Assembly: GCA_020438845.1 (NCBI GenBank)
Contig: JAGQTV010000039.1
Location: 62,001 to 126,000 of the forward strand
Reading direction: 5' to 3'
Source: Mycobacterium sp.
Lineage (GTDB): Bacteria > Actinomycetota > Actinomycetes > Mycobacteriales > Mycobacteriaceae
Length of the DNA stretch: 64,000 nt
Below the pieces are notes generated by a model, which made no database searches, had not been told where the DNA came from, and saw only the letters and a program-made list of their open reading frames with translations. Both the position numbers and the translations under genes were made by a program. Shown here in pieces: positions 37,639 to 49,179 of the stretch; position 1 is the stretch's first letter; every line of letters begins with the position of its first letter.

Positions 37639-37689
37639 GACCCCAAACGAACACCGGGGTCGCAAGACCCCAATCGAACACCGGGGTCG
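37639..37689. repeat. Tandem hairpin repeats upstream of tRNA-Asn
   Basis: A 24-bp unit beginning GACCCCAA and ending CACCGGGGTCG occurs at 37639-37662 and 37666-37689 with one mismatch (A/T in the loop). Each unit is itself a dyad, GACCCC...GGGGTC, with an 11-12-nt loop. They lie in the gap between the divergent Rv2342-like gene and the tRNA, so could be operators, RNA hairpins or terminators. Confidence 0.6.
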
Positions 37690-37783: not shown

Positions 37784-37859
37784 TCCCCTGTAGCTCAACT
37801 GGCAGAGCTCCCGACTGTTAATCGGGCGGTTGATGGTTCGAGTCCATCCGGGGGAGCCA
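37784..37859 (+). tRNA. asnT: tRNA-Asn (GTT)
   Basis: A complete 76-nt cloverleaf: acceptor TCCCCTG pairs with CGGGGGA, D-arm GCTCAACTGGCAGAGC, anticodon arm CCCGA-CTGTTAA-TCGGG with anticodon GTT, T-arm GATGG-TTCGAGT-CCATC, discriminator G and encoded CCA. It is the integration site of the adjoining element, which restores its 3' end. Confidence 0.96.
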
Positions 37860-37860
37860 A
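37833..37860 (+). other. attL core of integrated element
   Basis: 28 bp, from ATGGTTCGAG to GGGAGCCAA, covering the T-arm, acceptor 3' strand and CCA of tRNA-Asn. It is identical to 49152-49179; identity stops at both sides. Confidence 0.93.
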
Positions 37861-37866
37861 GCTCCA

Positions 37867-37884
37867 ACCAGCGAAAACGCTGGT
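37867..37884. terminator. Hairpin between tRNA-Asn and integrase 3' end
   Basis: ACCAGCG-AAAA-CGCTGGT, a perfect 7-bp stem with a tetraloop, immediately after attL and 9 bp from the integrase stop. It could end both tRNA and integrase transcripts. Confidence 0.5.
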
Positions 37885-37892
37885 CAGAACAC

Positions 37893-39053
37893 CTATCCGG
37901 TCACCAGTTTCAGCGCTGGCGCCCACAATTTGCCCACACTTTGATCTAACTTGTCGGCAGCTGCAGTTAAGTCGTCGTCAAATAAGTCGGCGTAAACGTC
38001 CAGTGTCATGGCCGCCGACTTGTGCCCCAGCATCCGCTGAATCACCTTCACATTCGCCCCGGACTGAACCGCCAAACTCGCAGCCGTGTGACGAAGGTCA
38101 TGAGCGGTAATGCGCGGGAACACCGGCGTCTGAAGCTTCCGGTCCACCTCGGCCTTCTGCTCGGCTATCCGGGCCGCTTCCGCGATCCGCTGGCACCGCC
38201 TGACAGCCCCAGACAGCCACGAATCATGCGAGCCCGGTGGCTTTAGATGCCCGCCGGTCTGCGACGGCCAAATCAGATCGCTATCGGCCTTCCCGGCGAC
38301 CGTGATCGCCAACTCGTCCACGACGTACTGGGCCAGCACAAGCGTCCGGTGATCGCCGCCCTTCGGTGTGCCGGTGGTGCCGCCCGTCGCGTTCTTGTGG
38401 ATCACCAGCCGCCGGTCCTGGACGTCGGCAACCCTCAAGCTGACCGCCTCGCCCCATCGAAGGCCGGCTGTACCCAACAGCAGGACCAGGGACCGGTAGC
38501 GGCCCGATTCCCGCGCCAGCGCGTGCAGCTGCTCGCCGGTCAAATACACGTTCGGCCGTTTGGTGATCTCGGGCAGGTTGTCGGTCTTCGTCGCCGGATT
38601 CGAACCGATCCGGCCGTCGTCCTTGGCGTCTTCCAGGATCGAGAACATCACCGCGTGCGCGGCCCGGACCACCTTCGCGCCGCGGCGCTGCGCCAACTCG
38701 GCAACCCACGCTTTGATGTCAGACGGCATGACCTCGCTGACGGGCCACCGAGCCCAGTGCGGTTTGAGATGGACCCGCCACGACACCTCAACCGACTTGT
38801 AGCTGTTGGGCTTCAGGTGCCCTTTCTGGCGCTCCAGCCACGCTTCGCCCAGCTCCCCGATCGCGGCCTTGCCGAGCGCGGGGGAGACGTACTCGCCGCG
38901 CAACTTGCGGCTCTCAACCTCGGTCGCGAAGGCCGAGGCGTCCCGCTTTGTCTTGAAACCACGCTTATCGGTTTGGCGGTGATCCGGCGTGCGATAGCGG
39001 ACACGGTAAAACGTTGCACCCGAGGCGGTTTGGTACTTACTGATCGTCGCCAT
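37893..39053 (-). CDS. int: Tyrosine integrase
   Basis: A 386-residue site-specific recombinase: N-terminal arm-binding AP2-like domain (ATFYRVRYRTPDHRQ...GFKTKRDASAFA), core-binding SAM-like domain (about 65-160), and catalytic domain with Arg in GLRWGEA, HDLRHTAAS, LGHKSAAMT and Tyr in DVYADLF. It points towards attL, the usual arrangement. ATG 39053 (MATISKYQ) lies inside the 3' end of the repressor gene; both are probably one transcript. Confidence 0.93.
   Translation of the reverse strand: MATISKYQTASGATFYRVRYRTPDHRQTDKRGFKTKRDASAFATEVESRKLRGEYVSPALGKAAIGELGEAWLERQKGHLKPNSYKSVEVSWRVHLKPHWARWPVSEVMPSDIKAWVAELAQRRGAKVVRAAHAVMFSILEDAKDDGRIGSNPATKTDNLPEITKRPNVYLTGEQLHALARESGRYRSLVLLLGTAGLRWGEAVSLRVADVQDRRLVIHKNATGGTTGTPKGGDHRTLVLAQYVVDELAITVAGKADSDLIWPSQTGGHLKPPGSHDSWLSGAVRRCQRIAEAARIAEQKAEVDRKLQTPVFPRITAHDLRHTAASLAVQSGANVKVIQRMLGHKSAAMTLDVYADLFDDDLTAAADKLDQSVGKLWAPALKLVTG
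37919..37938. repeat. Candidate integrase arm-type site, left
   Basis: GCGCCCACAATTTGCCCACA, identical to 49040-49059 near attR. Each copy holds GCCCACA twice, 11 bp apart. It lies 58 bp inside attL, within the 3' end of the integrase gene. Confidence 0.55.
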
Positions 39054-39555
39054 CGGGGAATCTGAATCCTTGCGCCCGCAGCTCGAGGTCCATTTCACGG
39101 TCGCGTCCGCGGTCGTAGTCGACCTGGACGAACTCGGGCCATGCGTATGCCCGGAACTTGGCCACCGTCCAATCCGGGGTGACCATCGGCGGTATCGGAT
39201 CCTGACCAGCCAGCCAGTACCACGCCGAGCGCGCGGTAACCAGAGACTCAGCGCCTGTCACTGACACCGGGCTGTCCGCGGCCTCGTGAGCTGGCATCAA
39301 CAGAGTCGCCGGCGAAACCCCCAGCGCGATAGCCAACGCGACAAGGTCATCGACATCGACACGCCGATTGCCCTCTTCGATTCTGCGCACGGCTAGCGGA
39401 GGAATGTCCCGGCCAATGTTGGCGAGTCTCGTCGACAAGTCGGTGTAGTTGAGTCCTATCGCCTTCCGCAGGCGAGAAACGTTGCGCGCAACGGCCGCCC
39501 CCGTGTCGCCTAGCTCGAGTTTCCTTCCGGCCACAATGCTGCATTTTGCCTCCAA
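39037..39555 (-). CDS. XRE-family helix-turn-helix repressor
   Basis: About 172 residues. A Cro/CI-type HTH is seen near residues 20-85 (VARNVSRLRKAIGLNYTDLSTRL ... IEEGNRRVDVDDLVALAIALG), followed by a C-terminal region without a LexA-type protease motif. It overlaps int by 17 bp and diverges from the excisionase-like gene, flanking a dyad operator. Start is TTG 39555, or GTG 39534 behind GGAGG at a long spacing. It is likely the element's maintenance repressor. Confidence 0.75.
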   Translation of the reverse strand: MEAKCSIVAGRKLELGDTGAAVARNVSRLRKAIGLNYTDLSTRLANIGRDIPPLAVRRIEEGNRRVDVDDLVALAIALGVSPATLLMPAHEAADSPVSVTGAESLVTARSAWYWLAGQDPIPPMVTPDWTVAKFRAYAWPEFVQVDYDRGRDREMDLELRAQGFRFPDGDDQ

Positions 39556-39613
39556 AAGATGAACTCAGGCAAGCAACTCTTGCGTGTCGCGATCGAGCGT
39601 GATATCTCTTGAA

Positions 39614-39642
39614 GTCGGACCTCTAAACAATAGAGGCCTGAC
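39614..39642. promoter_or_regulatory. Dyad operator in repressor-excisionase gap
   Basis: GTCGGACCTCTA-AACAA-TAGAGGCCTGAC: arms match at 10 of 12 positions, with a perfect inner CCTCTA/TAGAGG. It is the only strong dyad between the divergent repressor (start 39555) and excisionase-like gene (start 39669), so a repressor operator is inferred. Confidence 0.55.
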
Positions 39643-39668
39643 TGAATTGAATGGAGGTAATCCCAAGC

Positions 39669-39869
39669 ATGGAAGAGGAACTGCCGGCCATCTTCACCGC
39701 GAAGGTGCTAGCGAGCTTCCTGGATACGAGCGAAGCCAGCCTCGCCCAGGATCGCTATTTGCACCGTGGTGTGCCTTTCACGCGCGTAGGTCGGCGCGTT
39801 CGGTACCTCCGCGAGGACGTTCTGAAGTACCTCGCGGACAACAGGGTCGGCGGCCCGGATGCCGCCTAA
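39669..39869 (+). CDS. xis: Excisionase-like HTH protein
   Basis: A 66-residue protein with a MerR/Xis-type helix-turn-helix (FTAKVLASFLDTSEASLAQD ... FTRVGRRVRYLREDVLKYL). ATG 39669 has GGAGGT 10 nt upstream; the earlier ATG 39651 is in the ribosome site itself. First gene of the rightward operon, opposite the repressor: recombination directionality factor or early activator. Confidence 0.7.
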   Translation: MEEELPAIFTAKVLASFLDTSEASLAQDRYLHRGVPFTRVGRRVRYLREDVLKYLADNRVGGPDAA

Positions 39870-39886
39870 CCCCACAACGACAACGG

Positions 39887-39922
39887 CCCCCGTTGGCCTC
39901 GGTGCTCCAACACCGAGCGGGG
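39887..39922 (+). terminator. Hairpin after excisionase gene
   Basis: CTCGGTG-CTCCAA-CACCGAG (39898-39917 region) with an outer CCCCG/CGGGG extension across a 5-nt bulge, in the 100-bp gap before the next gene. It may attenuate early transcription. Confidence 0.4.
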
Positions 39923-39969
39923 ACCGCTGCACCCAACCACTCACCGAAGAACAGAAAGGCATCTCAATC

Positions 39970-40518
39970 ATGTCAGACACCACCGACACCAGCCAGCCCG
40001 CCGCCCCAGGCCCCGACGATGCTGGGTTTTGGCTTCCGGTCGATTCGAGCCTCGATCCCGCGGAAACCCACGGCACTGTCGTCAACCTCGACCAGCCCGA
40101 CCCGCTACCGGCCCTTGAGCGGTGGAAACAACTTGTCGAGGAATTCGAAGAAGTCCTGGCGCTATACCACAACGGCAACGCCGGGCATGTGATGCCCGGG
40201 CCGCGGCCGGTGTGGGCCGATGAAGGTGAAGACCAAGTGCTCAACTCGATGTCGGGGCACTGTTACCGGTCGGCCGTTGTACGGGTCCCTGCCTCCAACG
40301 GCCGAGGATTGAACGACGGCACCTACCTGGACCAGGCCAGCGTCGACGTCTCCATAGGGATATTCGGGGTAGGCAACACGTTCGTAAGTCTCACGGTGCG
40401 GAAACAGAACACCGCCGGTAAGTGGGTCGAGTGGGGCCACGTACTCACCGCCGCCGAGGCCGTCGAGGTTTCCAAGGTATTGCTGGCCGCCGTCGACCTG
40501 CTCGGCGGTGCCAAGTGA
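39970..40518 (+). CDS. Hypothetical element protein
   Basis: A 182-residue acidic protein with an Ala/Pro/Asp-rich N-terminus (1-25) and a mixed alpha/beta body. No motif recognised; the C-terminus AEAVEVSKVLLAAVDLLGG is helical. ATG 39970 follows GAAAGGCATCTCAATC. Its stop overlaps the DUF2742-like start (GTGA). Likely replication-region accessory, by position only. Confidence 0.65.
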   Translation: MSDTTDTSQPAAPGPDDAGFWLPVDSSLDPAETHGTVVNLDQPDPLPALERWKQLVEEFEEVLALYHNGNAGHVMPGPRPVWADEGEDQVLNSMSGHCYRSAVVRVPASNGRGLNDGTYLDQASVDVSIGIFGVGNTFVSLTVRKQNTAGKWVEWGHVLTAAEAVEVSKVLLAAVDLLGGAK

Positions 40519-40811
40519 CCGCAATCGAATCCCGCACCGTGGACTGGTGGTCAGTCCACCAATTCGTACTACCAACGCTGGAGGGGGTGAGGTCCTGGCC
40601 GATGGCCGGGACTCTCACTTGGCAACACCTTCCCGACGATCACCCCGCCAAGCTGGCCGCGCTCTACGACGCCGCGCAACACTGGGCGCTTCGCGTCGAC
40701 TCCTGCCAGGAAGCGATGGCCGACGCATCCAAAGCTATTGCAGCCTCTGCTGATTGGCCGGCCACCGCCCGTCCTCGCGGCTCCGCCTACATCCCCCGGA
40801 GGATCGCTTGA
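40515..40811 (+). CDS. DUF2742-like protein (phiRv2 Rv2656c relative)
   Basis: A 98-residue protein. The stretches VDWWSVHQFVLPTL, WPMAGTLTWQHL and AQHWALRVDSCQ resemble the DUF2742 proteins of the M. tuberculosis phiRv1/phiRv2 elements (recalled similarity). GTG 40515 overlaps the previous stop, and its own stop overlaps the RepA-like TTG start. Function unknown; the link to phiRv-type elements is the main information. Confidence 0.7.
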   Translation: MTAIESRTVDWWSVHQFVLPTLEGVRSWPMAGTLTWQHLPDDHPAKLAALYDAAQHWALRVDSCQEAMADASKAIAASADWPATARPRGSAYIPRRIA

Positions 40812-42385
40812 CTACTACAACGGCCGAAGACCGCGCCGCCGAGTACGAGCTCACGCACGGCGTCGCAGTGGCCGTCCCCGGACCCTGCCCTGCCTGCGGG
40901 CTCGATTCCATCTACTCCCGCGACCAAGGCCGATACCTTCACATCGACGGCAGCGACAACAAACGGTGCTGGGCGCACATCTCCAGCGGCGCGATCGACG
41001 ACGGACCTATCGAACCCGAGTCGGTATGGGACTTCCTCGACAACGTTCCGGGTAGCCGCCAGGTCGTCGTCACCCGAGGATCCGCCATCACCCCCCGCCG
41101 CATCACATGGTGGGAACAGGACGTGATCATCAAGAACGAGATCAACCTTCTCGCCGCCCGCGAATCTGCCGGCAAGTCAACGCTGGCCGCAGCCTGGTCC
41201 GCCCGCGAAACCGCTGCCGGAGGAACGGTGCTGTGGATCGGCACCGAGGAATCCCGCGAGCACGCCCAAGTCCCCAGACTGATCGCCGCCGGCGCTGACA
41301 TGGAACGCGTCGTGTTCGTCGATGTTGCCACCAGCGGGGCCGCGGCGATGCTGGGCGCGCTGCAGTTCCCGCTGGACCTGAAGAACGTCGAGAAGGTAAT
41401 CCGGCAACACGGCGTGACCATGATCGTCCTCGACCCGTGCAAGGGCTTGGTGCCACCGGATTTCAAGGGCAACGATGACGTTGCCGTCCGCCAGTACCTC
41501 GAACCCATCGGGGCGCTGTGCAACCGCACCGGCGCCACCCTGATCGGCTTGGCGCACTTCGGGAAACGAGACAGCCGAGATCCGGGCAAGCTTCTCCTGG
41601 GCTCGATCGCGTGGTCTCAGGTGGCCCGCTCGGTCATCTCCGTCGCCGAGATCCCCGACACCGGCAACCGGGTGCTGACAAACACCAAGACGAACTATTC
41701 GCCGGAGGCCCGCTCGATCGAGTTCCGCATCGTTTCGAAAACGATCGACACCGCCGAAGGTCCGTCCATCCTCGGCGCCGTCGAATGGATCGGCGAAACG
41801 CACCTCGACGCCCGAGACCTTCTGGGCGAATCCCACCGTACCGAGGAGATCGAGGAGTTCGACGAACACGACTACACCGACGACTTCAGAGGGTCGTGGC
41901 TGTACAGGTACCTCGAATCCGCGGCCAAAGCCAACGCTGACGTCCGCCCCAAGGATGCCGTCGCAGTTGGCGCCGACCGAGGCATCAGCCGCGCGTCGGT
42001 CTTCCGCCTGTTCGACAAGCTGGCAAACGCCGGTCTGGCTATGTCGGTAGATGGCATCGGATTCCCTCGGGTCACCCACTGGCGGATCGTCGGTGAGACC
42101 ACAGGGCCTGTCATGGAATCAGGTGAGACTACAGAGACTACAGGCGCTGACCTGCGAAAACAGGGTGAGACTACTGAGCCGCTGTGGGACCACAGTGAGA
42201 CTACAGAAAAAACCGCACCTGACCAGGAAAAACAGTCCGGGCAACCTCCTGTGGTCTCAGTAGTCTCACCCACTCCACATGACACCCCACCCGGCGGAGT
42301 CACCGCCGACACCCCCGGTCAAACCGACCGAGTCGCCGCCGCCCTCGCAAAGGCCACCCAGCAAACGAAAGGAACACCGCAGTGA
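40808..42385 (+). CDS. RepA/AAA_25-type replicative ATPase
   Basis: A 525-residue protein: N-terminal CPACG zinc-knuckle region (about 20-60), then a RecA-like ATPase with Walker A AARESAGKST, Walker B VTMIVLDPCKG, and GLAHFGKRDSRD as the sensor, matching RepA hexameric helicases. A winged-helix-like region (RGISRASVFRLFDKLANAG) follows, and a tail with repeated ETT. TTG 40808 overlaps the upstream stop and has GGAGG 6 nt before it. The tail-coding DNA contains iterons. Likely the element's replication initiator/helicase. Confidence 0.8.
   Translation: MTTTTAEDRAAEYELTHGVAVAVPGPCPACGLDSIYSRDQGRYLHIDGSDNKRCWAHISSGAIDDGPIEPESVWDFLDNVPGSRQVVVTRGSAITPRRITWWEQDVIIKNEINLLAARESAGKSTLAAAWSARETAAGGTVLWIGTEESREHAQVPRLIAAGADMERVVFVDVATSGAAAMLGALQFPLDLKNVEKVIRQHGVTMIVLDPCKGLVPPDFKGNDDVAVRQYLEPIGALCNRTGATLIGLAHFGKRDSRDPGKLLLGSIAWSQVARSVISVAEIPDTGNRVLTNTKTNYSPEARSIEFRIVSKTIDTAEGPSILGAVEWIGETHLDARDLLGESHRTEEIEEFDEHDYTDDFRGSWLYRYLESAAKANADVRPKDAVAVGADRGISRASVFRLFDKLANAGLAMSVDGIGFPRVTHWRIVGETTGPVMESGETTETTGADLRKQGETTEPLWDHSETTEKTAPDQEKQSGQPPVVSVVSPTPHDTPPGGVTADTPGQTDRVAAALAKATQQTKGTPQ
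42092..42270. repeat. Iteron-like repeats, candidate replication origin
   Basis: Consensus GGTGAGACYACWG occurs at 42092-42104, 42122-42134, 42164-42176 and 42194-42206 (first base A), with a partial GAGACTACAG at 42134-42143. Two inverted copies lie at 42249-42260 and 42258-42270. The array is in the 3' end of the RepA-like gene and encodes its ETT repeats. Four direct copies then an inverted pair is typical of initiator binding sites. Confidence 0.6.
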
Positions 42386-42723
42386 ACATCCCCTCCGAGG
42401 CTTACATCGTCGACGACAACGGCATCCCCATCGGCCACATCGACTTTGACAAGCTCACCCGCGACGCCACGCTCCTGATGTATGAGATGGCCGAAACCGC
42501 CGGAGACGACGCCGCCACCGACCGCGTAGCCATCCGCTGGACGAACCGGGCAGACATCACTCCGGACTACTTCGGCTACCTCGCCGCCACGGCACTGTCC
42601 CTCACTGTCCGCCACGTCCTCGCGCCCACGCTGGACGCCGTCGCAGCTGCCGGTGTGGATCTACGCCCCGGTCTCAGGGCCGCCGCAGACGACGCCCGCC
42701 GCGATCTCAACAAAGTCAACTAG
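42382..42723 (+). CDS. Hypothetical element protein
   Basis: A 113-residue acidic, Ala-rich protein, GTG start overlapping the RepA-like stop (GTGA). The N-terminus AYIVDDNGIPIGHIDFDKL looks beta-hairpin; the rest is helical. No motif recognised. Confidence 0.6.
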   Translation: MNIPSEAYIVDDNGIPIGHIDFDKLTRDATLLMYEMAETAGDDAATDRVAIRWTNRADITPDYFGYLAATALSLTVRHVLAPTLDAVAAAGVDLRPGLRAAADDARRDLNKVN

Positions 42724-42735
42724 AGGAGCCCCGGC

Positions 42736-43002
42736 ATGTCCGAGTCGTACCGCATCAACCCCACCAACGAAACCATCATCGTCAGGGCCGAGGAGATCCA
42801 CGCCACCTACGGCCAATCCAACGGCACCGAGTACGTGTCGCTCTACATCCGCGACCCACTCCTCGGCGAACTGTTCATCCCCTTCGGCCTACCCGCCGCC
42901 GCGGAAACCATCGCGAACATGGTCGGAATCCTCGGAAACATCGACACCCTCCGAACCCGCTGGACCCAGAACAACCCAAGCAGCGAGGAGGCAGGCGAAT
43001 GA
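42736..43002 (+). CDS. Hypothetical element protein
   Basis: An 88-residue protein starting MSESYRINP behind GAGGAG, with beta-rich YVSLYIRDPLLGELFIPFG in the middle. Its stop overlaps the zinc-ribbon ORF (ATGA). Unknown function. Confidence 0.6.
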   Translation: MSESYRINPTNETIIVRAEEIHATYGQSNGTEYVSLYIRDPLLGELFIPFGLPAAAETIANMVGILGNIDTLRTRWTQNNPSSEEAGE

Positions 43003-43139
43003 GCTGCACCCACCCGCCACTGACCACACAACCCGCGCCCGGACGCTGCGCCTGCGGTCAACAACTCTGGGCACCAACATCAGTCGCACGCGGCTACTGC
43101 GACCACTGCAGGATCCACCACCAGGAGGGCGACCAGTGA
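42999..43139 (+). CDS. 46-residue Cys-rich (zinc ribbon-like) protein
   Basis: ATG 42999 overlaps the previous stop; its stop overlaps the HNH gene. The sequence contains CTHPP, CACG and CDHC, six Cys and several His in 46 residues, suggesting one zinc site. Coupling on both sides supports translation. It may assist the HNH nuclease or bind DNA. Confidence 0.6.
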   Translation: MSCTHPPLTTQPAPGRCACGQQLWAPTSVARGYCDHCRIHHQEGDQ

Positions 43140-43513
43140 CCCTCAAGCCCTGCATCCAATGCGGCCAGCCCAGCGACCGCACCCGCTGCCCCGATCACCG
43201 ACCCAAGGACACCCGCAACCACCGAGCCCGCGGATACGACGCAGCCTGGGACCGCCTGTCCAAACGCGCCCGCCGGCTACAACCCTTCTGCTCGGACTGC
43301 GGAGCCACCAACGACCTCCAGTGCGACCACACACCACAAGCGTGGGAACGCAAGGCCGGCGGCCAAGCCATCCGCCTCCAGGACGTCGACGTCGTCTGCG
43401 GCCCATGCAACCGGCGCCGCGGAGCTGCCCGACCCGGCGCGACCAGGGGAGATACCCCGAACGACCCCCTCCAGTCCCCGAGCGGCAAGGCGCAGGGGGC
43501 GTTACACACGTGA
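43136..43513 (+). CDS. HNH endonuclease
   Basis: A 125-residue protein with N-terminal CIQC...CPDH and an HNH core: CSDCG, then QCDHTPQAWERKAGG and DVVCGPCNRRRG. HNH nucleases next to the terminase act in packaging-site cleavage in many HK97-type phages. GTG 43136 overlaps the upstream stop; the frame is open much further upstream, but that overlaps coupled genes. Confidence 0.82.
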   Translation: MTLKPCIQCGQPSDRTRCPDHRPKDTRNHRARGYDAAWDRLSKRARRLQPFCSDCGATNDLQCDHTPQAWERKAGGQAIRLQDVDVVCGPCNRRRGAARPGATRGDTPNDPLQSPSGKAQGALHT

Positions 43514-43518
43514 CGGTC

Positions 43519-43725
43519 CTACAAGAACATTGCCTTGCCGCGCTCCTGGACGTAGGAGATCTTTGTCCATCCGGAGGGCGACAGCGCGACAGCGCTGCGC
43601 TTGTCACCTTCGGGTGCGTCAAGGAAGGTCAGCACGCCGGTTTCCTTCGAGATTTTGAATTCTTGTCCGACGCTGGTGTCTCCGTTGATGACTGCGCCGT
43701 CTGTGCAGGTGATCGAGAATTTCAT
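43519..43725 (-). CDS. Small protein encoded against the late operon
   Basis: A 68-residue ORF on the minus strand, between HNH and terminase, starting MKFSITCTDGAVINGDTSVG. It is beta-rich with mostly G/C third positions, which argues it is real. Its start and the terminase start face each other across 14 bp that hold AAAGG for this gene and AGGAG for terminase. No function recognised. Confidence 0.55.
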   Translation of the reverse strand: MKFSITCTDGAVINGDTSVGQEFKISKETGVLTFLDAPEGDKRSAVALSPSGWTKISYVQERGKAMFL

Positions 43726-43739
43726 GCCAGGAGCCTTTC

Positions 43740-45215
43740 ATGAAGGCGGGGCCGAAGGCGTCGGTGGATCCGTCCGGGTTGCCGTGGCGGCCGCGGTCGG
43801 TGGGTTCGGCCCGCTTTGCCCGGTTCTGCGATCGATACGTGAAGGTGCCCAAGGGGACGGGCGCGCGGTCGCCGTTGCGGTTGCGGCCGTGGCAGCGGGA
43901 TCTGGTGGGTTCGGTTCTGGACACTGACCCGCAGCCTCGCACGGCCGGGTGGATGTTGCCGCGCGGTCAGGGCAAGTCGAGCTTGGTGGGCGCGTGGGGT
44001 TTGTATGAGTTGTTCACCGGCGGTGAGGGGGCCACGGTGTGCGTGGTCGCCGTCGATGAGCGTCAGGCCGGCATCGTGTTCGGGATCGCTCGGCGCATGG
44101 TGGAACTCGACGAGCAGCTGGAGTCGCGGGTGCAGGTGTTCAAGGAACGGCTGGTGATCCCGGCCCGCGATGCCCAGTTCCATTGCCTGCCAGCTGAACC
44201 GAAACGGTTGGAGGGGCTCGACTACACGCTGGCGATTCTGGACGAGGCCGGCGTGGCCAACCGCGATTCCTACGAGGTGCTGACGCTGGCGCAGGGTAAG
44301 CGGGAACGTTCAACCCTGGTGGCGATCGGCACCCCTGGCCCGAACCTTGAGGACCAGGTGCTGCTGGACCTCCGCGCCTATGCGGCAGAGCATCCTGACG
44401 ACCGGAGCCTGGTGTGGCGGGAGTTCTCGGCGGCCGGGTTCGAGGATCATCCGGCGGACTGCGCCCATTGTTGGGAGTTGGCCAACCCGGCGCTGGATGA
44501 CTTCCTGCACCGCGACGCGCTTCATGCGTTGTTGCCGCCGAAGACTCGGGAGTCGACGTTTCGGCGGGCCCGGTTGTGTCAGCTCGCCGCCGATGCCGAG
44601 GGTAAGTTCCTGCCCGCCGAGGTGTGGGACGGCTTGTCCACCGGTGAGGGTATCCCGGATCGGGCCGAGGTTGTTATCGCCCTTGATGGCTCGTTCTCTG
44701 ATGACACGACCGCGTTGCTGGCCGGAACCGTCAGCGCGGAGCCACATTTCGACGTCGTGGCGGTGTGGGAACGTCCGAGCCGTAAAGACGAGGACTATCG
44801 GGTTCCGATCGCTGATGTCGAGGACATGATCCGGCGGGCGTGCCGGCGCTGGCAGGTCGTGGAGATCGTCGCCGACCCGTTCCGGTGGACCCGCACCCTG
44901 CAAGCCCTGGAGGCCGAGAAGCTGCCGGTGGTGGAGTTCCCACACTCCCCGAGCCGGTTGACGGCGGCGACGACGGATCTGTACAGCGCGGCGGTGAATC
45001 GGCGGCTGACCCATTCCGGTGATCCGCGTCTGGCCGCTCATGTCGGGGCCGCGGTGATCGTTGAGGACGCCCGCGGGATGCGTCTGTCCAAGCAGTCGCG
45101 GTCACGGACCGCACCGAAGATCGACCTGGCTGCCTGCCTGGTCATGGCCCACTCACGCGCCGTCTGGCGCTCAACCCACAAAAAACGCAGAAGAAGCTGG
45201 AGTTTTGCATCATGA
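43740..45215 (+). CDS. terL: Terminase large subunit
   Basis: A 491-residue packaging motor: Walker A-type LPRGQGKSSL (about 75-84), Walker B LAILDEA (about 163-169), and a C-terminal RNase H-fold nuclease starting VIALDGSFSDDTTALLAG. No small terminase is recognised next to it. ATG 43740 follows AGGAG. Stop overlaps portal (ATGA). Confidence 0.9.
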   Translation: MKAGPKASVDPSGLPWRPRSVGSARFARFCDRYVKVPKGTGARSPLRLRPWQRDLVGSVLDTDPQPRTAGWMLPRGQGKSSLVGAWGLYELFTGGEGATVCVVAVDERQAGIVFGIARRMVELDEQLESRVQVFKERLVIPARDAQFHCLPAEPKRLEGLDYTLAILDEAGVANRDSYEVLTLAQGKRERSTLVAIGTPGPNLEDQVLLDLRAYAAEHPDDRSLVWREFSAAGFEDHPADCAHCWELANPALDDFLHRDALHALLPPKTRESTFRRARLCQLAADAEGKFLPAEVWDGLSTGEGIPDRAEVVIALDGSFSDDTTALLAGTVSAEPHFDVVAVWERPSRKDEDYRVPIADVEDMIRRACRRWQVVEIVADPFRWTRTLQALEAEKLPVVEFPHSPSRLTAATTDLYSAAVNRRLTHSGDPRLAAHVGAAVIVEDARGMRLSKQSRSRTAPKIDLAACLVMAHSRAVWRSTHKKRRRSWSFAS

Positions 45216-46555
45216 GCACTGACAACCCACTACTGCTGAACCTGTTGCAGCGGCTCGACGAGCCGGCCGCCCGCTACAACGAGCTGTCCCTGTACTACCG
45301 CGGTGAGCAGCCGCTGGCGTTCCTGTCCCCGGAGGCGAAGGTGGCCTTGGGTAGCAGGTTCGGCCGCATGGCTTCCAACATCCCCCGCCTGGCCGTGACC
45401 GCTTTGGCTGAGCGCCTGCGGATTACGGGCTTCTCCGGTGGTGGTGATCTGTGGGCCGATTGGATCCGCAACGACCTCGACCAGCTCTCCGGGGTGGCGC
45501 ACCGCGAAGCGCTACTTCTCGGGGACAGTTTCGTCATCGTGTGGGCCGACAGCTTCGGCCGCCCGCGGGTGACTGTGGAATCAGCGAATCAGGTCGCGGT
45601 GCTGTCCGATCCTGGCACCCGGCAGATCACGGCGGCGGTGAAGCGGTGGGAAACCAAAACCACCACCGAAGCCGTCCTGTATGAGGCGGATCGGATCACC
45701 CGGTACCGGTCGAACGCAACCGGCGCGACTCTGAACGGGTTCACAGTGGTTGACGAGATCGCCAACCCGCTCGGGGCGGTGCCGGTGGTCAACATTCGCA
45801 ACTCTGATCGGATCCTGGACTGCTACGGCTCCTCGGAGATTGACGACCTCAAGCCTCTGGTGGATGCGCTGAACAAGCTGCTGGTCGATTTGATGACGAC
45901 TTCGGAGTTCACCGGCCGGCCGCGTCGGTGGGCTACGGGCATCGAGGTCACTGAACGGCCGGTGCTCGACGATGAGGGCAGCCCGGTCCTCGATGGCGAT
46001 GGGTTGCCGGTCACTACCGAGGTGTCGCCGATCCCGGAGGGCAATAGGGCGATGATCGCCGAGCAGGCGGAGGCCAAGTTCGGTCAGCTCGACGCCGCCA
46101 CTCTCACCGGCTACGAGAACGCCGTGAATATCCTGCTCGGTCAGATCATGGCGGTATCGACACTGCCGAGCCATTACATCGGTGTCACGCACGACAATCC
46201 GAGTAGCGCTGATGCGCTGCGGGCATCTGAGGCGTCTTTGACCGCGCGGGCTGAGGCCCGCCAGGCCACCTTCGGGCGGGCATGGGAACAGGTCGCCAAG
46301 CTGATGGTGGCGGTACGTGACGGCCACGATCCGCAACTGGTGCAGACGCGGGTGCAGTGGGCCGACGCGGCCACCCGCAGTGTGGCCCAGGAGGCGGACG
46401 CCACCGTGAAGCTGGTGCAGGCCGGGATCCTGCCGGTCACCTATGCGCTGGCGAAGTTGGGGTACAGCGATGACGAGATCACCCAGATTCGGGTGGCCCG
46501 CCGCGGTGAGGCCATCGACACCGCCGGAATCAACCTGGTGGGCAGGCCGGCGTGA
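45212..46555 (+). CDS. Phage portal protein (SPP1 gp6-like)
   Basis: A 447-residue portal: N-terminal YNELSLYYRGEQPL, wing and stem regions, PSHYIGVTHDNPSSADALRA and an Ala-rich crown region. It forms the DNA gate at one capsid vertex. ATG 45212 overlaps terL; the stop overlaps the MuF-like gene (GTGA). Confidence 0.88.
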   Translation: MSTDNPLLLNLLQRLDEPAARYNELSLYYRGEQPLAFLSPEAKVALGSRFGRMASNIPRLAVTALAERLRITGFSGGGDLWADWIRNDLDQLSGVAHREALLLGDSFVIVWADSFGRPRVTVESANQVAVLSDPGTRQITAAVKRWETKTTTEAVLYEADRITRYRSNATGATLNGFTVVDEIANPLGAVPVVNIRNSDRILDCYGSSEIDDLKPLVDALNKLLVDLMTTSEFTGRPRRWATGIEVTERPVLDDEGSPVLDGDGLPVTTEVSPIPEGNRAMIAEQAEAKFGQLDAATLTGYENAVNILLGQIMAVSTLPSHYIGVTHDNPSSADALRASEASLTARAEARQATFGRAWEQVAKLMVAVRDGHDPQLVQTRVQWADAATRSVAQEADATVKLVQAGILPVTYALAKLGYSDDEITQIRVARRGEAIDTAGINLVGRPA

Positions 46556-47202
46556 TCGAGGACTACCAAGCCCAGACCGCGGCGCTCGCCGCCGGCACAG
46601 TGACACAGGTGAGCGCGATCTATGCCGCTTTCCAGGCCGGGCAGATCACCCAGGCCGAGACAGCCCAGTTGGTGGCCTCGGTGATCAATCTGGCCAACGC
46701 GACGGCGGCCACCCTCGCTGACGCGTTCATCTCCGCACAGATCGAGGTGCAAATCGGTTACCCGACACCGACCGTCGGTGTGGTGCCGGCCGACGACACT
46801 GCCCGGCTGGAGTTGGCCGCCCACACCATCCTCGACGACCTTTTTACTGCCGTCAGTGAAAAGACATCGGCAGCCGATGACGAGATCGACGACGACCAGC
46901 CAGACCCGGTGAGTGCGGCCGAGGTTCGTTTCGAACGCCTGGCCCGCGCCGAGCCACTGGAGACCGCCCAGAAGGCCACCGTCGAGGTCATGGACGCGCA
47001 GCCGTTGGTGGAGGGCTGGACACGGCAGATGGATGCCGACCCTTGCCAACTGTGCACCTGGTGGTGGCGCACGGGCCGGATCTGGCCGAAGAACCACCCG
47101 TTCCAGTCCCACAAAGGGTGCAATTGTCAGCCGAAAGTTGTTCTTGCCAAAGAGATTCAATCCACCGAGTACACCCGCAAATTAGAGAGGAACCAAGCAT
47201 GA
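46552..47202 (+). CDS. MuF-like minor capsid protein
   Basis: A 216-residue protein with a helical first half (AALAAGTVTQVSAIYAAFQA) and a C-terminal signature DADPCQLCTWWWRTGRIWP, then HKGCNCQP. Four Cys could hold zinc. Such proteins follow the portal in actinophages and enter the head with DNA. GTG 46552 start; stop overlaps scaffold (ATGA). Confidence 0.75.
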   Translation: MIEDYQAQTAALAAGTVTQVSAIYAAFQAGQITQAETAQLVASVINLANATAATLADAFISAQIEVQIGYPTPTVGVVPADDTARLELAAHTILDDLFTAVSEKTSAADDEIDDDQPDPVSAAEVRFERLARAEPLETAQKATVEVMDAQPLVEGWTRQMDADPCQLCTWWWRTGRIWPKNHPFQSHKGCNCQPKVVLAKEIQSTEYTRKLERNQA

Positions 47203-47642
47203 GCGATGAAACCACCACCGAGGCAACCACAGTCGACACGGCCGCGGACCAAACATCCCCACCTGTGGACAGCCCTGGGGATGACCAGGGCGGCAGTGCG
47301 CCGCAGCAACACGAGCCCGATACCTTCCCCCGCACCTACGTCGAGGAGTTGCGCCAGGAGAACGGCCGCTACCGGCAACGCGCCGCACAGGCAGACACCT
47401 ACGCCCAACGACTGCACACCGAATTGGTGAGGGCCACAGGGCGATTGGCCGACCCGACCGACCTTCCGTTCGACGCCGAGCACCTCGAAGACGGTGACAA
47501 GTTGTCACTAGCTCTCGATGACCTGCTGGCCCGCAAGCCGCACCTGTCCAACCGCAAACCAGTCGGCGACATCGGGCAAGGCGCAGCACCATCCGCCGGT
47601 ACCGTGGACCTGGCCGCCATCCTGCGAGGCAGAGCCGGATAG
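47199..47642 (+). CDS. Capsid scaffold-like protein
   Basis: A 147-residue protein: disordered Thr/Asp/Pro N-terminus (1-45), a coiled-coil helix (TYVEELRQENGRYRQRAAQA ...), then DAEHLEDGDKLSLALDDLL and a basic end. This is the usual scaffold layout directly before a major capsid gene. ATG 47199 follows GAGAGGAACC. Confidence 0.75.
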   Translation: MSDETTTEATTVDTAADQTSPPVDSPGDDQGGSAPQQHEPDTFPRTYVEELRQENGRYRQRAAQADTYAQRLHTELVRATGRLADPTDLPFDAEHLEDGDKLSLALDDLLARKPHLSNRKPVGDIGQGAAPSAGTVDLAAILRGRAG

Positions 47643-47643
47643 C

Positions 47644-47754
47644 TACCCCTCAGGGGTATAGTGGTGTGGTCGGTCCTGGTGGCCGGCCCCATCGCTGTCC
47701 TGGTGACACGGGTTCCACAGAATCCAATTCTTCTGTCACGTAAGGACTCTCATC
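47644..47754 (+). promoter_or_regulatory. Leader with hairpin before capsid gene
   Basis: TACCCC-TCA-GGGGTA forms a 6-bp hairpin at 47644-47658, overlapping TATAGT (47657-47662), a good -10 box. The remaining leader has GTAAGGA 12 nt before the capsid ATG. It may separate scaffold from capsid dosage by terminator plus internal promoter. Confidence 0.4.
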
Positions 47755-48603
47755 ATGGCTGAAACCACGTCCGCCAACCCCGCTCTGCTCGCCGACCAGG
47801 TTGCCAGCTTGCTGGTTCAGCCGTTGGAAGCCGCCTCGGTCGTCCTGTCCTCCGGGCCGCGGATCTTCGACACCTCCGGCGTTCTGCGCATCCCGAAACT
47901 CACCGGCAGCTCGGCGGTCGGATTCGTCGGTGAAGGCGAAGAGATCGACGACACCCACGGCACCACGTTCGACGAGATCGTGCTCATGCCCGCCGACCGC
48001 AAGAGCATCAAGGTCATCGAGCGCTACACCAACGAGTTGGTCCGCCAGTCCGTCGTCGGCATCGACGCTGTGTTGAAGAACCGTCTGGTCAAGGTGGTCT
48101 CCGACAAGCTCGACACCGCGCTGCTGACCGGCGACGGCCTCAACGACACCATCACCGGCCTGATCTTCCAGGAGGGCGCCCTGGAGGCCCCGCTCGATGT
48201 CACCGACGCCGACAGCCTGCTGACGGCCATCGGTGAACTCTCGGCGGCCGAGGTGATGCCCAACCGGTGGCTGATCAACGGCGATGACTTCATCGCCCTA
48301 CGCAAGCTCAAGGAAACCGACACCAGCTCCAAGTACCTGCTGGAGTCCGACGTCACCGCCGGCCCCACCTACCGGCTGTTCGGCATCCCGGTCACGGTGA
48401 CCAACAAGCTGCCCGAAGGCACCGCCGTGCTGGCCGACATGAGCCAGGTTGCCATCGCCCGCGATCTCGCACCGTCGGTGACGATCCTCTCCGAGCGCTA
48501 CGCCGAGTACGACCAGATCGGCATCCGGGTGGTCACCCGGTACGACCTCGGACTCTTGCAGCCGGCGGCTGTGCTCGTTCTGAACGCCGAGGGCGGCAGC
48601 TAG
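47755..48603 (+). CDS. Major capsid protein (HK97 fold)
   Basis: A 282-residue protein with HK97-type features: N-terminal arm (ANPALLADQVASLLVQPLE), E-loop GEGEEIDDTHGTTFDEIVL, spine helix ELVRQSVVGIDAVLKNRLVKV, and a P-domain/A-domain end (RYAEYDQIGIRVVTRYDLGLL). No separate protease gene is seen, so cleavage may not occur. Confidence 0.88.
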   Translation: MAETTSANPALLADQVASLLVQPLEAASVVLSSGPRIFDTSGVLRIPKLTGSSAVGFVGEGEEIDDTHGTTFDEIVLMPADRKSIKVIERYTNELVRQSVVGIDAVLKNRLVKVVSDKLDTALLTGDGLNDTITGLIFQEGALEAPLDVTDADSLLTAIGELSAAEVMPNRWLINGDDFIALRKLKETDTSSKYLLESDVTAGPTYRLFGIPVTVTNKLPEGTAVLADMSQVAIARDLAPSVTILSERYAEYDQIGIRVVTRYDLGLLQPAAVLVLNAEGGS

Positions 48604-48608
48604 CAGTC

Positions 48609-48923
48609 ATGGGCATTGAGGATGCAGCTGCCACGCTGGCCGCGCAGGGCAACATCGGTGATGCTGTTCCGGCCGCGGTCCCTCTGATCACCGCGATGGC
48701 CAAGGCGTACACCCGCGGACGCGGTTTCGATGACGATGGCGATCCGAGCGAGGAGATCGCCGCGGTGATCACGACCGCGTCGGTGCGCCTGGCCGCCAAC
48801 ACCCGCCAAACCGACCACGCTCAAACGATGGGCGAGTTCTCCGAGACGGTCCGCTCGTTCTTCAACGGGTGGACGTTGGCCGAGTTGGCGGTGCTCAACC
48901 GGTACCGAGTGCGGGCCATGTAG
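48609..48923 (+). CDS. Head completion/connector-like protein
   Basis: A 104-residue helical protein 5 bp after the capsid gene (ITAMAKAYTRGRGFDDDGDPSEEIAAVITTASVRLA), with the size and position of gp6-type connectors. It is the last gene; tail adaptors and tail genes are absent. It probably closes the head and docks a helper's tail. Confidence 0.65.
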   Translation: MGIEDAAATLAAQGNIGDAVPAAVPLITAMAKAYTRGRGFDDDGDPSEEIAAVITTASVRLAANTRQTDHAQTMGEFSETVRSFFNGWTLAELAVLNRYRVRAM

Positions 48924-48994
48924 ACCAGGGCCGCCGCCGCGGGCTTGCAGGGGTTGCTCCTTCCCCTCCCTCGCGGTTGTGGCGGTTCCCTGAC

Positions 48995-49033
48995 GGTGGC
49001 CTCGTCCGTGCGTGCGGAGCGGACGAGGCCACC
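48995..49033 (+). terminator. Strong hairpin terminator ending late operon
   Basis: GGTGGCCTCGTCC (48995-49007) and its exact complement at 49021-49033 form a 13-bp stem, extendable by one G-C, with a ~13-nt loop. It is 72 bp past the connector stop. Confidence 0.75.
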
Positions 49034-49039
49034 CCCCCC

Positions 49040-49059
49040 GCGCCCACAATTTGCCCACA
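49040..49059. repeat. Candidate integrase arm-type site, right
   Basis: Exact copy of 37919-37938, in the same orientation, 92 bp inside attR. In the excised circle the two copies flank the att core on either side, as P and P' arm sites should. The rest of 48924-49151 shows only the terminator and no gene. Confidence 0.55.
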
Positions 49060-49151
49060 ACTTTCCCGCGGTAACAGATATCTACCGTGAATCACACTGA
49101 TGTCATTTCGCAGTTCAGAGGCTATGCGGCCACCGGAACAGGGCTTAAGAT

Positions 49152-49179
49152 ATGGTTCGAGTCCATCCGGGGGAGCCAA
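49152..49179 (+). other. attR core of integrated element
   Basis: Exact 28-bp copy of 37833-37860. Only the tRNA 3' fragment is present, so this is not a functional tRNA. Confidence 0.93.

Follow-up and report, generated by a model that had tools for sequence, protein, structure and literature searches.

An element with phage head genes in a mycobacterial tRNA gene

Why would a set of phage head genes sit in a mycobacterial tRNA gene with no tail or lysis genes beside it? The question is raised by a 64,000 bp stretch of Mycobacterium sp. DNA (contig JAGQTV010000039.1, positions 62,001–126,000; assembly GCA_020438845.1), here called the window, in which an element of 11,347 bp including both terminal repeats (37833–49179) occupies a tRNA-Asn gene. 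A first-pass annotation, made from the letters alone, had described it as a tailless satellite that builds its own heads and not as a decaying prophage. Our comparison leads to the same view: the intact frames, the purifying selection and the constant size and gene order in many species make it very probable that the element is an integrated, capsid-forming phage satellite.

The 28-bp att repeats proposed earlier are exact copies (37833–37860 and 49152–49179), and the first overlaps the 3' end of tRNA-Asn(GTT), called by ARAGORN at 37784–37859. In addition, an exact 20-bp repeat absent from the first-pass annotation has one copy near each end of the element (37919 and 49040); these are probably integrase arm sites. 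The site is empty in a relative (genome G032, locus L284), where both flanks are contiguous without the element: right-flank sequence stands close after tRNA-Asn (73% over 539 bp), and the right-flank gene, within which the locus ends, matches at 75% over 92 aa. The G+C content of the element is 64.6%, against 68.0% and 66.2% in the 10 kb on each side. The features are as follows (ORF, open reading frame; HTH, helix-turn-helix).

37784–37859, plus strand: tRNA-Asn(GTT), integration target (ARAGORN)
37833–37860, plus strand: attL, 28 bp (exact repeat)
37893–39098, minus strand: tyrosine integrase (PF00589, 3.9e-18; phrog_1, 1.8e-61)
37919–37938, plus strand: 20-bp repeat, copy 1, possible integrase arm site (exact repeat)
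39037–39555, minus strand: HTH repressor (phrog_11503, 7.2e-27; PF01381, 3.7e-5)
39651–39869, plus strand: HTH_17 protein, Xis-like (phrog_2528, 6.3e-10; excisionase families weak)
39859–40518, plus strand: protein without family match, present in some relatives (family scan and relatives' loci)
40515–40811, plus strand: DUF2742 protein (PF10888, 1.4e-34, on the ORF from 40422; predicted start)
40808–42385, plus strand: AAA_25 (RepA-like) ATPase, replication (PF13481, 2.5e-19; phrog_10729; phrog_19; predicted start)
42382–42723, plus strand: 113-aa protein without family match, relatives in loci L067 and L068 (family scan)
42736–43002, plus strand: 88-aa ORF (ORF call only)
43136–43513, plus strand: HNH endonuclease (phrog_144, 3.8e-10, on the ORF from 42653; predicted start)
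43740–45215, plus strand: terminase large subunit, TerL (phrog_9, 3.8e-77; PF03354, 7.2e-10)
45212–46555, plus strand: portal protein, SPP1 type (PF05133, 2.5e-32; phrog_104, 4.6e-107)
46552–47202, plus strand: MuF-like protein, in the slot labelled head maturation protease in phages (phrog_1522, 3.3e-9)
47199–47642, plus strand: scaffolding protein (phrog_233, 6.5e-7, on the ORF from 47043; predicted start)
47755–48603, plus strand: major capsid protein, HK97 fold (PF05065, 1e-36)
48609–48923, plus strand: head-tail adaptor (family evidence; model pLDDT 81.6, beta-hairpin at residues 70–81)
49040–49059, plus strand: 20-bp repeat, copy 2, possible integrase arm site (exact repeat)
49152–49179, plus strand: attR, 28 bp (exact repeat)

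The gene set first proposed, from integrase, repressor and Xis-like protein through ATPase, HNH, TerL, portal, MuF-like protein, scaffold and capsid to one connector, is borne out by hidden Markov model (HMM) matches in intact frames and, for the connector, by its family; the ATPase also matches DnaB/primase-helicase families by HMM. The genes had been said to overlap mostly by 4 bp. This holds at the junctions AAA_25/113-aa gene, TerL/portal, portal/MuF and MuF/scaffold, but other gaps measure 5, 112, 226 and 412 bp.

In agreement with the earlier description, no tail or lysis family was found at E 0.01 among the scanned proteins (the 88-aa ORF left out), as far as such families are represented in the libraries used; a match of the scaffold to an Rz-like family at E 0.099 was taken as chance. 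The element had also been credited with neither a small terminase nor a protease. Indeed, no small-terminase family matched the scanned proteins, but the second half of the statement is unsure, because the MuF-like protein has phrog_1522, "head maturation protease", as its best match (3.3e-9) and stands in the slot that phages name protease. In relatives, the ORFs upstream of HNH (157 deduplicated elements) were clustered; reading of the 22 largest clusters by eye showed replication proteins, integrases, Xis-like and DUF2742 proteins and proteins without an assigned function, but no recognisable small terminase, although a divergent one is possible.

Distribution, gene order and size of the family

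A search with the portal covered 396 genomes of the genus group, the own genome included, and gave a match at E 1e-10 or better in 83 of them and at 1e-60 or better in 70 (counted from the table). We fetched 80 regions around portals, five of them distant matches that served as controls, and added 12 more later. Scans with a portal alignment yielded 101 loci in named genomes (80 kept) and 191 contigs in IMG/VR (80 kept, the longest of 18.5 kb). A second portal branch in IMG/VR comprised 84 contigs (80 kept, three above 20 kb), and 259 viral capsid contigs were found, of which 80 were kept. Hosts of the loci from named genomes include Mycobacteriaceae, Nocardia, Gordonia, Tsukamurella, Brevibacterium, Arthrobacter, Propionibacteriaceae, Janibacter, Arsenicicoccus, Nocardioides, Ancrocorticia and others.

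The first-pass annotation had suggested a search of mycobacterial genomes for the same gene order. In total, 242 loci had a portal and 151 of them enough flank to be judged; these counts are not deduplicated and, from the second IMG/VR branch, take in only L337, L342 and L373. HNH, TerL, portal, scaffold, capsid and adaptor followed each other in this order in 140 of the 151 loci, and 64 of the 140 had MuF as well. The remaining 11 carried TerL and portal (four), TerL, portal and MuF (three), TerL, portal and capsid (one), HNH, TerL and portal (two), or no called TerL (one). They are the distant controls, Streptomyces loci, the eroded L055 and L130, and the partial L193. Two of the controls, L107 and L109, have a frame of more than 800 codons about 7.2 kb past the portal, placed as a tape measure would be.

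The size is nearly as constant. After deduplication, 68 elements had a repeat in a tRNA gene; 64 of them measure 9.4–11.8 kb and four 13.2–16.1 kb, with a median of 10,678 bp over all 68. The last head gene lies at most 2.45 kb from attR in 66 of the 68; the other two are L071 (4.0 kb), which has two frames that we take to be transposase-like, and L098 (7.1 kb). By anticodon, 24 types of tRNA are targeted across the family. It should be mentioned that seven elements (L098, L090, L091, L093, L094, L082 and L085) have 1.3–7.1 kb between adaptor and attR, with extra frames besides any stopper.

Relatives with a full tail module between connector and attR, named beforehand as a refuting observation, did not turn up in the three IMG/VR contigs above 20 kb, which proved to be single or tandem satellites in the parts read. 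When 17.7–21.3 kb of each was read, L342 consisted of one satellite within other DNA carrying tRNA genes, while in L337 and L373 the satellites adjoin another integrase; the latter two are apparently tandem elements at one site.

Portal lineage and selection

For a careful portal tree we took 42 of 113 satellites (18 hand-chosen and 24 random) and 16 other portals from phages, prophage-like or unclassified loci, namely seven named phages, one faecal phage record, five distant mycobacterial loci and three Streptomyces/Streptosporangiaceae loci; phage Asten was left out. The satellite portals split from the 16 others with support of 100/100. In an earlier quick tree of 130 portals the 113 satellite-side rows were also set apart by one branch, supported at only 80 (95 for the 16 others), and Asten formed a very long root branch. 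Ten satellite-side rows of this larger tree lack an adaptor; in every case the contig runs out no more than 3.6 kb from where the portal begins.

The head genes of the window's element are distant from those of phages: the best identities among the matches listed were 28% for the capsid, 36% for the portal and 34% for TerL, and the scaffold matched 10 phage records over about 30% of its length. Head genes of the family are under purifying selection. In 14 hand-chosen pairs the ratio of nonsynonymous to synonymous substitution rates (dN/dS) was 0.06–0.20 for the portal (13 pairs; undefined in one identical pair), 0.02–0.55 for the capsid and 0.07–0.64 for the adaptor, thus always below 1.

In one genome two satellites, L158 and L159, have identical portals together with differing TerL (dN 0.37) and HNH; at times, the packaging genes TerL and HNH are exchanged without the head genes.

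The adaptor and the stopper families

Taken alone, the adaptor protein of the window's element gave no clear family match, and none in 50,697 phage records; a search of IMG/VR with a single adaptor protein returned four contigs of 8–13 kb. Its family is more informative. Nine of 22 members match the PHROG adaptor family Ad1 (best 3.2e-8). A profile of the family also matches, at E 3e-9, PDB entries 8zdj/8zdl, whose chains are named adaptor gp9 and are reported in a paper on phage Douge (PMC13033339). We therefore identify the last head gene as a head-tail adaptor. The model consists of three helices, a hairpin and a short helix, with a predicted local distance difference test score (pLDDT) of 81.6 and the beta-hairpin at residues 70–81. 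In Douge, according to the part of the paper concerned with this joint, the adaptor hairpin plugs the stopper and a C-terminal arm (residues 106–138) grips the portal (PMC13033339). In one alignment the satellite adaptors follow the Douge-type chains as far as residue 106 or 107 and then stop; judged from this, they seem to lack the portal-gripping arm.

Phages of this type have the order capsid, adaptor, stopper, neck, terminator and tail, and Avani is nearly identical with small extra genes. The head module of the satellites ends at the adaptor or the stopper. In at least 73 of the 161 deduplicated elements the adaptor is overlapped or abutted by another connector, of stopper type, which belongs to one of four families, StopA (47), StopB (18), StopC (4) and StopD (4), a representative of each matching PHROG connector families. 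These numbers are lower bounds, since a later scan found StopB in more genomes, a few of those hits possibly lying outside satellites. In 21 of the others, including the window's element, no more than 330 bp separate the adaptor from attR; 16 offer more space but contain no known stopper, and 51 cannot be judged. In the window's element the stopper profiles found no match anywhere at E 1; with neither a stopper nor room for one, its adaptor would dock at the helper's stopper. One relative, L103, has a neck-type protein (phrog_5210) downstream of the adaptor, one connector more than most.

Comparison of the stoppers with phage proteins revealed that: (i) the stopper of L082 is 54% identical to that of phage Kumao, while the portals share 22% and the capsids have no significant match; (ii) for StopB as a whole, all 18 stoppers match Kumao (median 36%), as against 15 of 18 portals (median 23%) and nine of 18 adaptors (median 38%); (iii) the Avani stopper shares 47% with L049 and 45% with L064, while the portal of L049 shares 24% (E 5e-4) and that of L064 nothing significant; and (iv) three of the four StopD stoppers match that of BoyNamedSue (median 36%). 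In three control pairs of phages, Kumao–Aziz, Kumao–prophiT49-2 and Aziz–prophiT49-2, the stopper (52, 50 and 62%) showed no higher identity than the portal (62, 62 and 67%). Over the three stopper families that match particular phages, StopB, StopC and StopD, the portals share 22–28% with those phages or fail to match.

Are the stoppers exchanged or inherited?

A broader proposal, to which we give an even chance, is that these elements form an old satellite lineage of Actinomycetota of about 10.7 kb, with a dedicated head of their own that is close to no phage searched, and that their tail-facing end is an exchangeable docking slot, holding nothing or one of the four stopper families, which sets the helper tails that they use. 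By sequence, StopB would point to Kumao/Aziz-type Vilmaviridae, StopC to Avani-type phages and StopD, weakly, to Gordonia phages. If the slot does set which helper's tails serve, the stopper sequence would name the helper.

Alternatively, the elements would be satellites all the same, and the stoppers of the relatives conserved leftovers of an ancestral phage, not pieces exchanged with helpers; we regard this as rather unlikely, although it is the likeliest of the alternatives. It would suit StopB, which lies on one side of a portal-tree branch (support 99) and is therefore largely vertical in distribution, as well as StopA, whose profiles partly resemble those of StopB and StopD, so that the four families are not all unrelated. 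In the same direction, L082 is the extreme among StopB, whose median to Kumao is only 36%, nine of the 18 StopB satellites have an adaptor that matches Kumao's too, and StopA (one sequence tried) had no phage match, which makes a recent origin of that family from phages less likely. Leftovers do not readily account for the contrast between stopper and portal in L082 (54% versus 22%) and in L049 with Avani (47% versus 24%), given that stoppers of phage pairs are no more conserved than portals. Moreover, parsimony on the quick portal tree, with 94 elements of determinable stopper state, requires 22 changes. Well supported branches alone force eight for StopA, six for the absence of a stopper, three for StopC, two for StopD and one for StopB, and the four StopC elements need four changes, three of them forced.

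StopB satellites were also present in three of the five genomes with a strong match to the Kumao-type major tail protein, against 23 of 396 (P 0.0016); over all 15 matching genomes the number is again three (P 0.049). The association is weak: the cut was picked after viewing the list, StopB was scanned in fetched loci only, at any place within them, kinship is uncorrected, and an abundance of mobile elements in some genomes could produce a similar result.

Satellite or prophage remnant?

A defective prophage, stripped of tail and lysis genes and now decaying, is an improbable explanation of the element. Its head genes are of phage type, their order is that of the head half of actinophages, and L055 and L130, apparently one element, are eroded. 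However, the order recurs in 140 of 151 loci and the size in 64 of 68, the genes are under purifying selection in the 14 pairs, the portals form a separate clade, and chance deletions in several host families would not all stop at one and the same gene. Broken or relaxed genes and variable deletion ends, the traits of a defective prophage, were not found except in the two eroded loci.

That the element is half of a split prophage with its tail genes elsewhere in the genome, the other refuting observation named at the outset, is very improbable. Further head genes do occur on three contigs of this genome. One (C101; L033, 6560–16357) bears a second satellite of the same family at tRNA-Leu, and the contig ends soon after the adaptor. 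Another (C72; L280, 9028–17648) has its own scaffold, capsid and small terminase, with a serine integrase and a D5-type primase; this third, satellite-like element has a layout that we take to be phiRv-like, more so than that of the window's element. The third (C24; L276) is a 4.2-kb contig with TerL and a PF04860 portal. No tape measure was found in the genome with PF10145 or TIGR01760, nor was a Kumao-type tail protein. Just as improbable is a domesticated particle, or a system of the gene-transfer type, with host DNA as its cargo: head genes without tail genes and intact frames would fit it, but the integrase, Xis-like gene, att sites and empty site mark a mobile element, as do the apparent tandem copies L337 and L373 and the many different tRNA targets.

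Several points nevertheless count against a satellite. L055 and L130 lack scaffold, capsid and adaptor, and thus some copies do decay. The TerL-portal fragment on C24 could belong to an unassembled prophage. The genome of the window's element yielded no tape measure with the two families searched. The small terminase, a reported trait of capsid-forming phage-inducible chromosomal islands (cf-PICIs), was not found in the element, and in this comparison of sequences neither excision, a particle, packaged DNA nor a helper was observed.

Proposed cycle and relation to known systems

As a satellite, the element would be roused by infection with a tailed phage or induction of a prophage, which would lift repression. 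The integrase and the Xis-like protein may then recombine the 28-bp core sites and so release a circle of about 11.3 kb, and the AAA ATPase may take part in its replication. HNH and TerL would cut the DNA and pump it into small heads of portal, scaffold and capsid, after which the adaptor would close the portal, its beta-hairpin exposed for the stopper on the helper's tail. Stopper, tail and lysis would thus come from the helper; the borrowing of tail and lysis was already part of the first-pass description and, for an element known here from its genes alone, seems plausible. For relatives with a stopper gene directly after the adaptor, the contact would shift one position towards the tail, to the following connector of the helper.

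The first-pass annotation had likened the element to phiRv1/phiRv2 of M. tuberculosis through a shared DUF2742 gene. Both phiRv1 and phiRv2 carry such a gene, and the replication and head set of phiRv-type elements differs from that in the window; in the window's element the gene is confirmed (PF10888, 1.4e-34). In the passages of Abad et al. (2023; PMC10654092) that bear on this, phiRv1/phiRv2 are counted among candidate PICIs proposed for Mycobacterium, so that the likeness as PICI-like elements of mycobacteria stands. The window's element is likewise a phage-like region with an integrase and a major capsid gene in a mycobacterial genome, the definition used there. The candidates further resemble it in their tRNA sites with tyrosine integrases and, in some, in having a helicase, terminase and scaffold; they differ in being defined by integrase and capsid only, and the account as known here describes no phylum-wide lineage, constant size, adaptor as last gene or variable stoppers (PMC10654092). 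The same source states that phage induction of Mycobacterium PICIs is not yet demonstrated, which leaves their helpers open. Where a connector gene indicates one phage group, the helpers to be tested would shrink to a short list.

The parallel drawn earlier with PICIs "of other phyla" is right as to kind, but the kind had already been described in mycobacteria (Abad et al., 2023), and the family extends beyond them across Actinomycetota. cf-PICIs (Alqurainy et al., 2023), as summarised in PMC10690885, have their own capsid, portal, connectors, HNH and TerL and take only tails from the helper. Like them, the window's element has its own integrase between att sites, major capsid, portal, TerL, HNH and a connector (one adaptor) and no tail or lysis family. 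They are described there with a head maturation protease and a small terminase; in the window's element the protease is unsure and no small terminase was found, a scaffold is present, and the family median is about 10.7 kb. The Streptomyces phage satellites MulchRoom and MiniFlayer share Actinomycetota hosts and, in MulchRoom, a tyrosine integrase, and are set apart by their description in the same source: a small terminase, no known primase, virulent helpers and, in MiniFlayer, a tail fibre gene (PMC10690885). Small actinobacterial elements have been suggested to be satellites (PMC10023795), and cfPICIs are named in PMC11389934. Our literature search, with subscription papers mostly outside it and an earlier description therefore possible, found no paper joining satellite stoppers with helper-phage tails, nor cf-PICI with Mycobacterium.

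Capsid-forming satellites are thus a known kind, to which the comparison adds the spread across Actinomycetota, the constant order and size, the portal split, the purifying selection and the variable stoppers. A satellite-only head lineage, if true, would bear on the origin of satellites, as old elements with their own heads and not fresh prophage remnants.

Just upstream of the tRNA-Asn gene of the window, two near-identical 24-bp direct repeats lie at 37639–37689.

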